A stretch of DNA of 11,787 bases from Amoebophrya sp. AT5.2. Lineage: Eukaryota; Sar; Dinophyceae; Syndiniales; Amoebophryaceae. Position 1 is the stretch's first letter; every line of letters begins with the position of its first letter. The notes under the pieces were generated by a model. That model had not been told where the DNA came from, did no database searches, and worked only from the letters and a program-made list of their open reading frames with translations. Below are positions 4,211-10,934 of the stretch, piece after piece. The stretch lies in NCBI GenBank assembly GCA_005223375.1, contig RXOD01005971.1, positions 1 through 11,787 of the forward strand, read 5' to 3'. Made by a program: the position numbers and the translations under genes.

Positions 4211-7151
4211 ATGGGCAAGAAGAAGGACGACAAGGATGCTGGGGAGGAGCGGCTGCGAATCGCGATCGTTTCCAGCGACAAGTGCAAGCCGAAGAAATGC
4301 AAGCAGGAGTGCAAGAAGTTTTGTCCGGTGGTGCGGACCGGAAAAATGTGCGTGGAAGCCGCGAAAGACAGCAAAACCGCATGGATCTCAGAAAGCCTGT
4401 GCATCGGGTGCGGCATCTGCGTCAAAAAGTGCCCCTTCGAAGCGATAAACATCATCAACCTGCCGAAGGACCTCGGTACCCATTTACAAATTTCGTTACT
4501 TTATTTTCGACCGGGACGTGGAGGCGGACAAGGACATCACAAAGTTCGATGCAGAGGCAATGGCTATTGCAATTTAATGGGTCGATCCGATTCATCTACT
4601 TATTTTTTTCACCGGACATGAACATGATCGCTCGTAATCAATGTAAATCACAACTGCAATCTGCAGGCGCGGAGACTACGCATCGATACGGGCCCAACAC
4701 TTTTAAGCTGCACCGGCTGCCGATGCCGAGGCCGGGACAGGTGCTCGGGCTCGTAGGAACGAACGGGATTGGAAAGTCCACCGCACTGAAGGTGCTGTCC
4801 ACGAAGCAGAAGCCAAATCTGGGCCGGTACGATCTTTGTTCTCTCTCTCTTACGAAGAAAACCGCTGTCAGTGAACAATCAATTGACCACTAAAAATATA
4901 TCGAACGTTCCGTAAAAGTACATTAAAACCTCCCAAGAAAAGGTACGACAATCCGCCAGACTGGAAGGAGATTTTGCAGCACTTTCGGGGTAGCGAGCTT
5001 CAGGCCTACTTTAGTCGGATGCTGGAGGACAAGCTGAAGTCGACGACGAAGCCGCAGTACGTAGACCAGCTGAAGGCGAAGGTGGCGGGGCGCGTGGGCG
5101 AAATCATCGAGGCCAAGGACGAGCGGAAGGTGGGAGAGAAACTGTCGAAGGAGCTGGAGCTCGACCACCTGCTCGACCGCGAAGTGAAAGACCTCTCCGG
5201 CGGGGAACTGCAGAGGTACCGATTTCTCTTCACTCTGGCATGAGGTCTCGGACGCGAGAACGGAATCAATTTGGCATAGATACGATTGGCATGCAATTGT
5301 AACATCGTTTCCCTACTTTCGGGGACTACCACCGCTACTTTGGGCTATAGCTGCTTCATTCGATCGGTTTCTTGATACGTAAACGTAAAATCCAACATTT
5401 ACGTCCATACGGCTGCATGATCGTACAGGTTTGCCATCCTGGTATCGGCGATCCAGGACGCGACGGTGTACATGATTGACGAGCCTTCGTCCTACCTGGA
5501 CGTAAAGCAGCGCCTGGCCGCTTCCCAGGTGATTCGTGGGATGCTCCGGGAGGACAATTACATCATCGTGGTGGAGCACGACCTAGCGGTGTTGGACTAC
5601 TTGTCCGACTTCGTCTGCTGCCTCTGGGGCGCCGCCGGTGCGTACGGGGTAGTGTCTATGCCCAGCAGCGTCAGGGAAGGTAGACTTTCTTTAGTACTAA
5701 ATGTATACGGCGAACAGGTGTTTTTGGCTAGCAGGCTGTTCCTCTAGAGGGTTTTCGTTGAGGAGTTGTTGCAGCCTTAAAGCTGTTAGAGGGGAGTCCG
5801 TAGTAGAGCCCCCCCTCCCACGACGTCGACCAGAATGTATAGCTACGCATACTTTCCGATAATATCTCACCACAGGTATCAACATTTTTCTGGACGGGTT
5901 TTTGCCGTCGGAGAATTTGAGGTTTCGGGAGGTGTCTTTGACGTTTAAGGTGTCGGCGGACGACTCCCTCGTCAAAGAGAGGCTCCACAACGTGCCCTAC
6001 CCGGCGCTCACGAAGAAGATGGGCAGTGGTGAGAAAGCGTTTATTTTGGACGTGGAGGCGGGCAACTTCAGCGACAGCGAAATCATCGTCATGCTGGGGC
6101 AGAACGGAACCGGGAAAACCACATTCATCAGGTAGGGCGAGCGCTTGGAATTACTAGTAATTTGAAGTGGTTCTAAATGGAAATCTAGAATACTGTTATT
6201 ATCTTTATCCTCCATCGCTCCATCGAATGGCGACAGGATGCTCGCGGGGCTGCTGAAGTCGGACGACGCCGCGGAGGAGGACCAGCTCCCGAAGATGAAT
6301 GTTTCTTACAAGCCGCAGACGATCACCGCGAAGTTTCAGGGCACCGTGGAGCAGCTGCTGCTCGGGAAGATTCGCGAATCCTACCTCCACCCCCAGTTCC
6401 AGAGCGACGTGGTCAAGCCAATGCTCATCGAACAAATCAAGGACCAGGAAGTCCAGCATCTCAGCGGTAATTTTACCTATATATCGGTTGATGAATGATG
6501 ATGGTGCTCGCGTTCGCACTCCTTGGTGCTCGCGCTCGGCAAGCCCGCCGACATGTAGGATTACATCTTTCAGTTTCATGATGTTTAGTACTATCTCAAT
6601 CCAGAACATAGCCGCTAGTTCTTGCTCCTTTCCCCGTGCACTGCAAATATAGCACAGCTGCCAAAAAGCCATCCGATGCGAGAAATATCCGGACAAATGA
6701 AATTCGACTCGTTTATTTTTTCCTTCCATCGATCCCCGCAGGTGGCGAGCTTCAGCGTGTTGCGTTGGTGCTCGCGCTCGGCAAGCCCGCCGACATGTAT
6801 TTGATTGACGAGCCCAGTGCGTATTTGGATGTGGAACAGCGGATTGTGGCCGCGCGCGTTATCAAAAGGTACGTGCTGCACGCGAAGAAGACGGCTTTCA
6901 TCGTGGAGCACGACTTCATCATGGCGACCTACCTGGCCGACCGGGTGATCGTATACGAGGGGGAGCCGGGGGTCCACTGCACGGCGACGAAGCCGCAGCA
7001 GCTGGTGGAGGGGATGAACCAGTTCCTGCAGCAACTCGACATCACCTTCCGCCGCGATCCGACGAACTACAGGCCAAGGATCAACAAGATGCTGTCGGTG
7101 AAAGACCGGGAACAAAAGGAAGCGGGGAAGTACTTCGTTCTGGAAGACTGA
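4211..7151 (+). CDS. ABCE1: ABCE1/RLI1, iron-sulfur twin-ATPase ribosome recycling factor (seven exons)
   Basis: Exons 4211-4475, 4667-4826, 4943-5215, 5429-5679, 5876-6131, 6237-6466 and 6742-7151 join in frame to 1845 bases, 614 aa (human about 599). All introns are GT-AG (191, 116, 213, 196, 105, 275 bp). The N-terminus holds two 4Fe-4S motifs: Cys25/30/34/38 ([15 protein letters not shown]) and Cys64/67/70/74 ([12 protein letters not shown]). ATPase 1 has Walker [10 protein letters not shown] (119-127), signature LSGGELQR (226-233), Walker B VYMIDEP and the H-switch His at 283. ATPase 2 has GQNGTGKTT (391-399), LSGGELQR (477-484), DEPSAYLDV and His535. The C-terminus keeps [15 protein letters not shown]. 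All catalytic residues are present, so the gene looks functional. Known family role: with eRF1 or Pelota/Dom34 it splits terminated or stalled ribosomes in the cytosol using ATP, and it also acts in initiation. The start gives a basic MGKKKDD extension before RIAIV. Introns 1 and 6 contain odd coding-like sequence (see findings). Confidence 0.96.
6503..6557 (+). repeat. Copy of ABCE1 exon 7 sequence inside intron 6
   Basis: Bases 6523-6557 (35 bases) are identical to 6765-6799 in exon 7, which encodes [11 protein letters not shown] just before ATPase-2 Walker B. In the intron copy the same frame ends at once in TAG. A further 14-base near-copy (13 of 14 identical) of GGTGCTCGCGCTCG lies at 6503-6516. 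The flanks are unrelated, so this is a local duplication and not an alternative exon with its own splice sites. Confidence 0.9.
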
Positions 7152-8072
7152 GGCAAGGGAGCGAGGGAGGAGGAGTTCTTTACATACTTAGGGGGTGGAA
7201 AATATCTGGGATTTGATTTTTACCGTAAAGCGTGCGAGGAAGAAGATGTCAACGTAGAGCAGCGTAATCCGACCCTGGGTTGGCGAATGAAGGGGACCAA
7301 ATTTCGACCACTTTTACCCAGGAACGCTGCAATGCCATCGCCCGGACCTTTAGCTATGTCCGGAGGTAGCTATTCCGGCGGCATTTAGTACCGATATCCG
7401 ATACCGATGCTCAATAGCCGCGGCGACACAATGTAGTATCCAAACAGGTTGACTATGTAGTACACAGCTTTGTTGCTCGATAGATCCGATGGTTCGGGGA
7501 TAGTTATTCGCCGCTTCCGCGAAAAAGGGATCCGGGATCAACCATTGACGGCGAAACTGACGAACTCATAAATTTACTTTTACATCAAAGAACCCGCCGC
7601 GGGATTGACTTGACGAAAATGACGAAAGGCGAACCTCTGCACTACGGCCGCGGCCTTTGGACAGTTACTCTGACGAAGCTAGGCTTGCATCGGCAAACCG
7701 ACCGGATGCAGGCCCAGGAAAAAAACCGACGTACGACTGACGCCCTCCTGTGCAGCACAGGGGCGGCGGTGAGTATCTATTGGCTTTCTGGTTCGCTGTT
7801 CTTGTCCGCTGTAGAAAATGTCAGGAGCCCACTTTTCGAGGCCGCATCAGGGGCTCGGGAATTATCCGTCGTGTGATTCATTATAAAACCGTCCGAGTCG
7901 TGATCGTGTCGCTCCGATCGATCCGATATGCTGAATACACTCAGCCCAGCCACCATCCCCCATCATCACAGTCTTAGGTACTATAACTAGAATCAGAATG
8001 TAGAGCAACTACTAGCTACTGCTACTACGCCGACAGTTAGTACCATTTGCAACGGCTATCTGTATCACCTCC
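7152..8072. other. Intergenic region between ABCE1 and the SelU-like gene
   Basis: No gene supported. It holds the ABCE1 3' UTR and presumably the next promoter. A 7610-7876 ORF contains GTGAGT, a good donor sequence, at 7769. I tested whether 7610-7768 could be a first exon of the SelU-like gene. The phase (0) does not match the acceptors seen near 8113 or 8159, and the peptide resembles nothing I know. Short CTA/CTG-type repeats lie at about 8009-8028. A 5-bp inverted repeat (CCGGA/TCCGG) occurs near 7360. No tRNA-like cloverleaf was seen. Confidence 0.4.
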
Positions 8073-8892
8073 ATGCCTTCTTGTTTTTGGAAGCGGTCAG
8101 GCAGCAGCACAGCGACGACCGGCACCGAAGGCGATCAAGAGCCGAGCGGGAGCTGCAGTAATGACCAAAAAGAAAGACGCGCAACGAGCGACATAATGAC
8201 CTCCCCCGCCGTGTTCGAGCGGTTGGCCGCCAAACTGCGACCCTTTAGCGCCTCCGCGTGTGATGCGCTGCCCGCTCCCAAGCTGTGGTCCCCGAACGGT
8301 GCCGTGATTCAGGTGGTCCGGCGCGCTGGCTGAAAGCCCTGTCTGCACGAGGCGAATTTCGTCGCCAACAAGCTGAGCGATCCTTTTCGGGATCTTGGGA
8401 GAAAAAAACACATAAACCGGGTCTTCATCGTGGGCGAGTCGGACTCCGTGGAGAATGTGGAGGAAGCGCTTCGACCAGTGGTGCAGCGTTCGGAGGGAGG
8501 AGGTCCGATACTAGTGGACGGAGACCGGGAGTGGTTCGAACTGCTGCACGGAAAAGGGCCGAGCACGAAGGGGAGCGATTTTTTGTCTCCCTTCGCACTC
8601 TGGAATTTTTTGGGGAAACACGTGTTCCAAATACCAGACGGGGTGGAGCCAAAAATCGGCGGCGATGTCAGGTACCTTTGTCGAAATCGACAATTTTAGC
8701 GCCATTGATCATTTTGTAATTGCACTCCACGAGGAGATGTGATGTAATGGGTGTCTCTACTTCAGGTGGCTTGGGGGGCTGCTCGTGCTCGACGGAGAGG
8801 GGAGGGAGGTGTTTCGCCACACCGAATCGCGGTACGGAGACATCTGTGACGTGGACGCGCTCCAGGCCGCGGTGGACAGACTAGCCACCTAA
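8073..8892 (+). CDS. Selenoprotein U-like (PRXL2/FAM213 AhpC-TSA family) with TGA-encoded selenocysteine
   Basis: Exons 8073-8671 and 8766-8892 join through a 94-bp GT-AG intron (phase 2, Arg codon) to 241 residues if TGA 8331-8333 is read as selenocysteine. The motif is GAVIQVVRRAG-(TGA)-KPCLHEA (Sec87, Cys90). It aligns position by position with the family motif GAVI-x3-RRPGC-x2-C-x2-EA of PRXL2A/FAM213A, where vertebrate-type SelU has Sec at the first Cys. The frame stays open for 112 further codons up to the intron. The C-terminal half has the family hallmarks: WNFLGK, then LGGLLVLDGEGREVFRHTESRYGD, then a terminal helix. The fold is thioredoxin-like and a redox role through U-x2-C is the family expectation; the substrate is not known from sequence. 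TGA is the true stop in three other genes here, so it is not reassigned genome-wide. ATG 8196 is an alternative start giving 200 aa, closer to family length; the first 41 residues are low-complexity. If TGA were a real stop this would be a truncated pseudogene, which the intact downstream conservation argues against. Confidence 0.85.
8331..8333 (+). other. In-frame TGA, predicted selenocysteine codon
   Basis: This TGA sits exactly where relatives have the first Cys of CxxC (RRPG-C-x2-C); the resolving Cys (TGT, 8340-8342) is intact. A one-base change of TGC or TGT gives TGA, but strong family conservation continues downstream to residue 241, across an intron whose splice phase still fits. Confidence 0.82.
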
Positions 8893-9789
8893 CTTTGCAC
8901 ACACGGCGGGAGCAGCTATGAGGGGCGCGGCGATGATGCCTCCGCGAACCGTCTTGATCTCCTTCTAAACTACATCAACTCACTGCTTGATATCATGTAC
9001 AAGACAGACGACCACTCATTGTGACGCTCGAGCGCGGTTGACCCGAACGGGCCCGCAGCCCGTCGAGCTGATATTCGGCGACGAATCGACAAGGCAGTGC
9101 GGATGACGAGTTTCGGCCTAGCAAGCGGCACGGTTACCACCGGTCAGCGCAGCACTGGCCTCAGATGAAAAGGCGTGCAGCCGCGGTTTGAAGATGATAG
9201 AAGATCCGCCTGCGATGTTCAACCTGGGATGTTGCCTAGTGTGGTGTTACTCGTGGGGGATCAACCTGCCGTGGAGTCTATCGATCATCCATGGATTGCT
9301 TGTGAGAGCGCTTCTATCGAAGTAGAAAAAAATTGCTACCGTCCGCGTCAGTACAAAGGAAGAGATACTTAGACTGACTTTACAGTTGCATCAGAATTCG
9401 TGGCGTTCGTCGTGCAGCACCAGGGCTTCTTTTGCACGCGGCGTGCCTCTGCAGCTTTTACGCCTGCGCGTGCGAACGCGAAGAAGAAGCCCATCGCCAG
9501 TCGACCCTGCCCCTCTCCTCGGAGGACAGCGGAGCGGCCAATGCGTGTCCGACTTCGGCCGAAGATGAAGGTTGCCACCCTGGTATTTTCCGGAGAGCAG
9601 CTGCAGCACCAGGCCTACTAGTGTTACGAGCCGCTCCCTTCGCCTTCGCAGAGACGAGCGGCTGATACGAGATCGTCGGAAAAAGCAAGCGGTGGCTGAA
9701 AAGCGATCTCCAGAGGTGGAGAAGGAGGACTGATATCTGGATCGAAAGCTTCCCATAGAAGTTGCAGCATAGAAGTTGCAGAAAACGAG
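8893..9789. other. SelU-like 3' region plus unresolved coding-like sequence
   Basis: 8893 to about 9390 should contain the SelU 3' UTR; a SECIS would be expected here and one imperfect candidate is listed separately. 8906-8914 and 8937-8945 form a 9-bp near-perfect hairpin. From about 9394 to 9733 the + strand is GC-rich and looks partly coding in different frames. One frame reads EFVAFVVQHQGFFCTR and stays open to 9621; another gives a basic tail ERLIRDRRKKQAVAEKRSP ending in TGA at 9731-9733. I could not find splice sites that join them, since the available introns would be under 50 bp. It may be a small gene with an exon I misplace, a frameshifted relic, or chance. Confidence 0.35.
9021..9072 (+). 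promoter_or_regulatory. Weak SECIS-like hairpin candidate downstream of the SelU gene
   Basis: About 130 bases after the stop, GTGAC (9021-9025) is followed directly by GCTCGA, which pairs with TCGAGC just before TGAT (9069-9072). The flanks TGAC/TGAT can form the non-Watson-Crick quartet (U-U, G-A, A-G) typical of eukaryotic SECIS elements. An inner GCGG/CCGC stem and a CCC-GAAC-GGG tip place AA in the apical loop. Against it: GTGA instead of ATGA, AA about 20 bases from the quartet where about 10-14 is usual, an interrupted helix, and no clear helix I. The region is GC-rich with palindromes, so chance pairing is possible. Confidence 0.22.
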
Positions 9790-10934
9790 ATGGACTACCC
9801 CAGCAACCCGATCGAGTGCCGCGAGAAAGCGGCCCGGGCGCTTTACTTTCTTGTGAGGTATATGCGCACGCGACTCAACCGCTACAAACTCACCGTGAAA
9901 GACTACATAAGGTACTTTAATACCTTCTACGGTACTACTTTAAGTTTCTACTTCTATAACATAGCTGGCGTTGGCGATGGGAATGGGATGGAGTGATTCT
10001 TTCATTTCATTTATCATTTCACCATGCTCTCGGGAATGCGATACCCTTAAATTTCCCCCAATACAACAGATGGCACCGGTTGTCGCAGCTTTTGGAGAAG
10101 GTGGAGCGAAGTCTCCGCAGCGCCTACCGGTTTCTGTGGTTTGGCACCTTCCTTTTCCGCCTCGTCGCGCTGCGCAAGAGAATCAAATCCGGGGAGCTGC
10201 TGTACTGATGTCATCACATACTTAACTTAAGTAGGCCTGTTGGCCCAGCTAAAAAAGCCTGTTGATTGTGTGAATTATACTGATTATGCTGAGTAAATAA
10301 ACTGATGAAAGGTCGTCGCTGGAGATTGGGTATCGCACGTTGATGTTCGTGCAGGACATTGCGGAGGATGCGTTGACGATATCCCTCTTCGACTCCCAGA
10401 AACCCGACCTCCAGCCCGGCGCGCCCGTCCCCACTGACATATGGGGTAAAAAAGCTATATTTATACGTACGTTTGTTGGGATTATTCATTTCAGTTTAAT
10501 ATTTCACCCGAGTCAGAAGTGATCGATGTGAATGATGTCAGAAATTGCCGTTCCCATCTTGCCAAGGAATGCAGGTATACCGCGGGGGACGCCGCAGCAG
10601 CAGTTTAGCTCCGCGCTCTCCGTTTTGGTCATCACGGCGAGGGTAGCACTCGTGCGACGGACCGGGAAAGGTAGTTAATGAATCGTATTGGTAGAATAAT
10701 TTCTATTTCCCCTGTAGCTTTACACCACCACCAGACAAAGGTAATGACAACTCGACGACGGACCCCATCATTACAGGCGGCGTCGCGTCTTGGCTGCAGT
10801 TGCTTTCCGACGCGTTTCTGGCTGGCTGCGAGCTACACGCTTCGTATTTCCTCAACACCAAGCCCGTGCCCGATGGTCAGCTATTAATTGGGTGCCTCAG
10901 CAGCGTGTGCGCCAGCGTTCGCTCGCTCGCCTGA
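9790..10934 (+). CDS. PEX11-like peroxisomal membrane protein (five exons)
   Basis: Exons 9790-9911, 10070-10201, 10312-10445, 10575-10670 and 10777-10934 join in frame to 642 bases, 213 aa, stop TGA. Introns are 158, 110, 129 and 106 bp, all GT-AG. PEX11-like features in order: an N-terminal amphipathic helix (ECREKAARALYFLVRYM, matching the family pattern GRDK-x-LR-x2-QY), a long Leu/Arg helix (LLEKVERSLRSAYRFLWFG, like the LE-x2-LS-x2-RK-x2-RLG region), a middle segment (LMFVQDIAEDALTISLF, like the L-x3-DH-x2-W region), and a C-terminal helix ending GCLSSVCASVRSL, like the conserved (G)-x2-SS-x3-LY end. Length is close to the usual 210-260. Known role of the family: binds and tubulates the peroxisome membrane during division. 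The match is by pattern and order only, so a diverged paralog or another amphipathic membrane protein is possible. Exon 2 would end in an in-frame TGA at 10206 if its intron (donor GTACTG) were retained. Confidence 0.62.

Follow-up and report, generated by a model that had tools for sequence, protein, structure and literature searches.

A probable SELENOU gene and candidate variant SECIS hairpins in a syndinian parasite close to Amoebophrya

The locus at 8073-8892 of the window (the whole stretch of 11,787 nucleotides that was analysed, which is contig C2175 of a genome of 50.7 Mb in 2,759 contigs) is, on the evidence of sequence comparison, very probably a SELENOU (PRXL2/FAM213) gene of a syndinian parasite close to Amoebophrya, with the UGA at 8331-8333 decoded as selenocysteine (Sec). 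The original prediction had read it as a selenoprotein U (SelU) gene in which a TGA replaces the first Cys of the CxxC motif, and this reading is now backed by homology, by tRNA-Sec genes and by three further selenoprotein genes found when the whole genome was searched.

The gene lies on the forward strand. Exon 1 (8073..8671) has its first ATG at 8073 and a second at 8196, and contains the TGA read as Sec (8331..8333), which is residue 87 counted from the ATG at 8073 and occupies the first position of a CxxC-type active site (U-K-P-C). An intron of 94 nt (8672..8765, GTACCTTT...TCTCTACTTCAG) follows, over which the phase is kept (G-D-V-R / W-L-G-G), and exon 2 (8766..8892) encodes the conserved C-terminal part of PRXL2 and ends with a TAA stop (8890-8892). 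Spliced and read through, the frame runs for 241 codons up to the TAA, with the TGA as codon 87 and 154 codons beyond it, in agreement with the earlier estimate of about 150 open codons past the TGA across an intron of matching phase. The residues flanking the TGA are LWSPNGAVIQVVRRAG-U-KPCLHEA, and the read-through protein carries the PRXL2/FAM213 pattern LWxxNGAVIxxVRRxG-U-xx-C-xxEA.

The family assignment is based on pairwise and profile comparisons. In BLASTP against human PRXL2A, the read-through translation is 27% identical over 176 columns (E = 5e-8), and RRAG[U]KPCLHEA is paired with RRPGCFLCREEA of the human protein, which places RRAG-U-KPC on RRPG-C-FLC, the alignment that had been proposed from the sequence alone. 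In hhalign against 12 vertebrate PRXL2A proteins the probability is 94.8 (E = 5.4e-8). Both methods find PRXL2 homology on either side of the Sec codon, so that the frame downstream of the TGA also belongs to PRXL2, and in the alignment to PRXL2 proteins the in-frame TGA falls at the position of the first active-site Cys (RRxG-U-xx-C). The match to Pfam AhpC-TSA_2 (PF13911) is below threshold (16.8 bits against a cut-off of 27, which is the cut-off of one model and not a trait of the family), and the only PDB sequence listed at E ≤ 10 is a prostamide/prostaglandin F synthase (E = 0.88). Because of these two results, the protein is regarded as a divergent member of PRXL2. An AlphaFold model of exon 1, made with nine vertebrate PRXL2A rows, has a mean pLDDT of 39, too low for it to be of use in judging a thioredoxin-like fold.

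When 5.8 billion proteins were searched with the read-through query, a single protein among 1,220 candidates was found at E ≤ 0.001. This protein, the EukProt model P0001 (155 aa), equals the query minus its first 41 residues and minus 45 codons around the TGA, and has the same junction at the 94-nt intron. It starts at the ATG at 8196 and drops 8304..8438 (forward strand, 135 nt), an in-frame stretch that holds the active site, as an intron. A gene caller had been expected to truncate the protein at residue 86 or to start it downstream; what happened instead is this excision of 45 codons.

Under the public model the TGA would be intronic and the protein would be made without the active-site stretch, which is very unlikely. 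The dropped stretch does start with GT, end with AG and keep the frame, and according to the text available from PMC7789003, non-canonical introns make up more than 60% of the total in A25 and A120, two related strains, so that unusual splice sites are possible at the level of the genus. However, no part of the family is more conserved than the one that this stretch encodes (VIQVVRRAG-U-KPCLHEA), and the TGA stands between conserved residues at exact spacing. Moreover, the supposed intron would begin with GTGATT and end with GCGAG, whereas all nine of the other introns placed by protein continuity (six in the neighbouring ABCE1 gene and one each in SelU, SelW and GPX) begin with GTA. The active-site stretch is also missing from two of the nine aligned vertebrate PRXL2A entries (P0119 of Amia calva and P0121 of Gekko kuhli); judging from the alignment, these gaps probably arose as in P0001, through the same error of gene calling at a Sec codon. 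With the TGA read as a Sec codon, the deposited model represents a well-supported selenoprotein without its active site, and public annotation has in effect wrecked the gene.

Three other genes of the same genome have a TGA at a Sec position. In a glutathione peroxidase (GPX) gene on contig C487 (658-1615 of locus L011; PF00255, E 4e-24), the TGA is exactly at the Sec position (NSATA-U-GRT); its Sec part and its FPCGQFG part are separated by about 90 inserted codons, which may hide an intron. In a SelM-like gene on contig C603 (174-1217 of locus L017, minus strand; PF08806, 28.1 bits against a cut-off of 26), it is likewise exactly at the Sec position (SCMA-U-RLNAL), and the protein has a long C-terminal extension with a possible membrane segment, as seen by eye; past the stop, 173 nt of the contig remain. 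The SelW gene on contig C1144 (QYCGG-U-GYKK) was recognised when the exon preceding a weak Rdx match was read, and is assigned by PF10262 (E 4.5e-11) and by Selenoprotein W in PDB (E 5.8e-7). Among the families looked for, this line of parasitic dinoflagellates therefore carries genes for the redox selenoproteins SelU, GPX, SelM-like and SelW.

The genetic code needed a test because one species in the genus, Amoebophrya sp. ex Karlodinium veneficum, has ambiguous stop codons: the available text of PMC12005148 and PMC6394959 describes roughly half of its gene models as carrying stop codons in frame, which are presumed to be translated. It is nonetheless extremely unlikely that the TGA specifies an ordinary amino acid here, under a reassigned or ambiguous code like that of the congener. 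The window contains the ABCE1 (RLI1) gene (4211..7151, forward strand), with six GT-AG introns placed by protein continuity. None of its 614 sense codons is TGA, and a genuine TGA terminator stands after ...GKYFVLED, at the same residue where the ABCE1 proteins of Amoebophrya A120 and A25 end; these two are its nearest relatives among the matches listed (the best 120 of 7,995 scored), at 90% and 88%, respectively. Since TGA terminates this neighbouring gene, the code is not reassigned, and the earlier statement that TGA is a normal stop in other genes of the window holds for ABCE1. The stretches matched in genome searches are also free of TGA: all four found with MsrA and all six found with a three-protein query have no stop, and nine of the ten found with selB are stop-free, the remaining one having a TAA. 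A TGA in frame was met only at the Sec positions of the four selenoprotein families, and the other Amoebophrya are described as having a canonical code in the part of PMC12005148 consulted.

Several other features of the window were recorded. The intron that precedes ABCE1 exon 7 contains a perfect 35-nt copy of part of that exon (6523-6557 and 6765-6799). By eye, two diverged copies of 'CCTATCTC..ATCTCCCG..GTTGTCCTCTCCCG..GCACTT' are seen at 983-1100 and 1259-1345. For the open frames at 108-650 (180 codons) and 2426-2974 (182 codons) there is no Pfam match above the cut-off, and the first of them is Cys-rich following a hydrophobic start. No Pfam match above the cut-off was found for the gene downstream of SelU, near 9790.

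Three tRNA-Sec genes with the anticodon UCA were found in the genome (C193:4851-4936, C811:15225-15310 and C1016:10453-10538). Each scores 65.8 bits against a cut-off of 47, and they are identical over the 86 nt matched; one copy is usual in eukaryotes. Their flanks differ, but a sequence of 19 nt (ATTTCGCAGTCTTATTCCA), which has no copy in 20 background stretches, is common to all three and ends 42-46 nt upstream, and a short T-run is present downstream in all three. Animal tRNA-Sec genes have an external promoter, and by analogy ATTTCGCAGTCTTATTCCA may be the promoter of the tRNA-Sec genes.

Of the Sec machinery that the original prediction implied, Sec-tRNA is thus present, in three copies, while EFSec was not recovered. 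An insensitive exon-wise search of the genome gave no convincing match to eEFSec among the matches read, a further weak one lying on C1644, and the same kind of search gave no match to SepSecS or SelD/SPS in this assembly, which may be incomplete. The GTPase matches of the selB search that were read were rejected as eEFSec; by our own recognition, we take them to be mitochondrial EF-Tu, EF-1alpha, eIF5B, EFL1, eIF2gamma, BMS1 and Snu114. SelT had no match in the genome in an exon-by-exon search with the human query. In exon-by-exon searches of this kind, an empty answer shows nothing unless a genome known to match is at hand, and it is not counted here as absence.

A strong candidate SECIS element of SelU, not named in the original prediction, lies at 9021..9072 on the forward strand, and consists of a GTGA core, a 44-nt stem-loop and TGAT. 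A hairpin of the form GTGA-(42-49 nt)-TGAT is found 3' of all four selenoprotein genes. The hairpins of SelU, GPX, SelM-like and SelW start 129, 184, 68 and 119 nt after the stop, respectively, with energies of -20.5 (inner part), -22.6, -19.2 and -19.7 kcal/mol. In all four genes, therefore, a stem located 3' of the coding sequence has at its base the xUGA ... GA core that is a trait of SECIS elements. The GTGA/TGAT pairing at 9021 emerged only when the 3' regions of SelU, GPX and SelM-like were compared, each of which has a GTGA-(43-49 nt)-TGAT hairpin; in an earlier scan for canonical elements, the site at 9021 had been paired differently on its 3' side (to 9085).

To define the hairpins, a fixed rule was used ([AG]TGA, [TC]GA[TA] and at least 9 closing pairs), with 20 stretches of 10 kb on both strands (400,000 nt) as the background. 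Under this rule the background has 0 matches at -19 kcal/mol or better, 1 at -17, 6 at -15 and 20 at -10; with GTGA/TGAT alone, the corresponding numbers are 0, 0, 2 and 2. The fixed rule gives one match each for SelU, GPX and SelM-like in 500, 500 and 173 nt, with thresholds that were set after these three had been seen, and SelW is the only blind test (one success in one). The GTGA/TGAT rule gives one match in each of the four 3' regions; under a looser rule, SelW also has a second, weak match (GTGA/CGAT, -10.0 kcal/mol) at 1,115 nt. Among 1,000 dinucleotide shuffles per 3' region (300 nt each, 173 nt for SelM), none was as good as the real hairpin in any of the four, and 0, 3, 2 and 2 of 1,000 had any match. 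A looser scan gave 15 matches in 63,072 nt of other loci; a looser-scan match within ABCE1 (5417-5476, ATGA/TGAT, -19.9 kcal/mol) was discarded under the stricter closing rule. We take the four 3' hairpins, on their sequence pattern, as candidate SECIS elements.

The recurrence of the pattern also bears on the last alternative, a pseudogene or a sequencing error that turned a Cys codon (TGC or TGT) into TGA, which is hardly credible: the change takes a single base, and one assembly was used with no reads seen, but the SelU frame shows no other lesion, either before or after the TGA or across the intron, and three unrelated families have the same TGA at the Sec position and the same 3' hairpin, so that the same accident would be needed four times.

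With the TGA taken as a Sec codon, the hairpins may be compared with the canonical SECIS rule, taken after the part of PMC2375036 consulted. This rule, with AA or CC unpaired 10-13 nt past the core, picks none of the four hairpins; that of SelW has CC 10 nt past the core, but paired in the predicted fold. Over the four regions (4,616 nt) the rule gives one match in SelU (-4.0 kcal/mol) and one in SelW (-15.3 kcal/mol, 900 nt away), and these fit the background rate of 116 in 400,000 nt. In a canonical scan of the window the best matches were no better than background, and they were dropped. The Rfam SECIS models have no match in 7900-9900 of the window at E ≤ 10, nor near GPX, and none above the cut-off genome-wide; a sub-threshold SECIS_1 match elsewhere in the genome was set aside, as an Rfam search around it gave nothing usable. 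The arms of the hairpins did not align in MAFFT, and a covariance model of them was abandoned.

Since the canonical rule picks none of the hairpins and a GUGA core is known from Ostreococcus, the core is canonical and the apical AA/CC is absent or moved. We give about equal weight to the two sides of the proposal that this is a SECIS variant of the Amoebophrya-like lineage, in which the GUGA/UGAU kink-turn core is kept and the unpaired apical AA/CC is lost in all four genes. If the proposal is true, the apical AA/CC is dispensable to, or has been replaced in, an entire lineage of eukaryotes, whose selenoproteome would escape standard SECIS searches. The four co-occurring 3' hairpins make the essentiality of the SECIS AA motif testable.

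Eukaryotic Sec decoding uses SBP2, eEFSec and tRNA-Sec, as described in the available part of PMC2746813. In the SelU mRNA, the hairpin at 9021-9072 would recruit a SECIS-binding protein together with eEFSec and Sec-tRNA, the UGA at 8331-8333 would be decoded as Sec, and translation would run on to the TAA at 8892. As suggested by its family, the translated protein would be an oxidoreductase of the PRXL2 type, with a thioredoxin fold and a U-K-P-C centre, in which the Sec-Cys pair may form a selenenylsulfide while reducing peroxide or disulfide substrates.

In the sections available to us, PMC7539508 counts Sec-containing SELENOU as one of the selenoproteins most widely found in algae, and PMC2375036 includes SelU in its lists for Ostreococcus and Thalassiosira. 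Because Sec-containing SelU is widespread in algae, the window gene adds a new member to a known family. It has Sec at the first CxxC-type position of a PRXL2 protein, like the SelU of algae, diatoms and vertebrates, but its host is a parasite related to Amoebophrya. It differs from vertebrate SelU by KP instead of FL between U and C, by insertions in the second half and by the weak Pfam score. The KP had already been named as a difference from the vertebrate proteins, and stands; an N-terminal stretch of 41 residues, named with it, is uncertain because P0001 starts at the second ATG. Mammalian PRXL2A/FAM213A belongs to the same family and has the same motif positions, with Cys where the window gene has Sec, and the N-terminal segment of vertebrate PRXL2A is unmatched by the window SelU.

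For Amoebophrya sp. ex Karlodinium veneficum, the part of PMC6394959 consulted reports selT, selM, selO and one tRNA-Sec, with a SECIS element (SECISaln) for selT only of the three. This related parasite shares the Sec trait and, by name, selM; it differs in its ambiguous stop codons, and the three selenoproteins named there do not include SelU, GPX or SelW. Within the literature searched, SelU was not found in print for the Amoebophrya group, and 'seleno' is absent from the main text of the Amoebophrya genome papers PMC12005148 and PMC7789003. An AAR-less SECIS of a whole lineage was likewise not found in the literature searched, as far as its text was available. The GUGA-core SECIS of Ostreococcus, in the available text of PMC2375036 and PMC11227280, resembles the hairpins described here in having a G before the core UGA and a long hairpin; in contrast, an unpaired AA/CC at 10-13 nt, which the rule of PMC2375036 requires in the part consulted, is missing from the present hairpins. 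The window gene itself is an ordinary member of a widespread family, and the AAR-less SECIS is the potentially new part.
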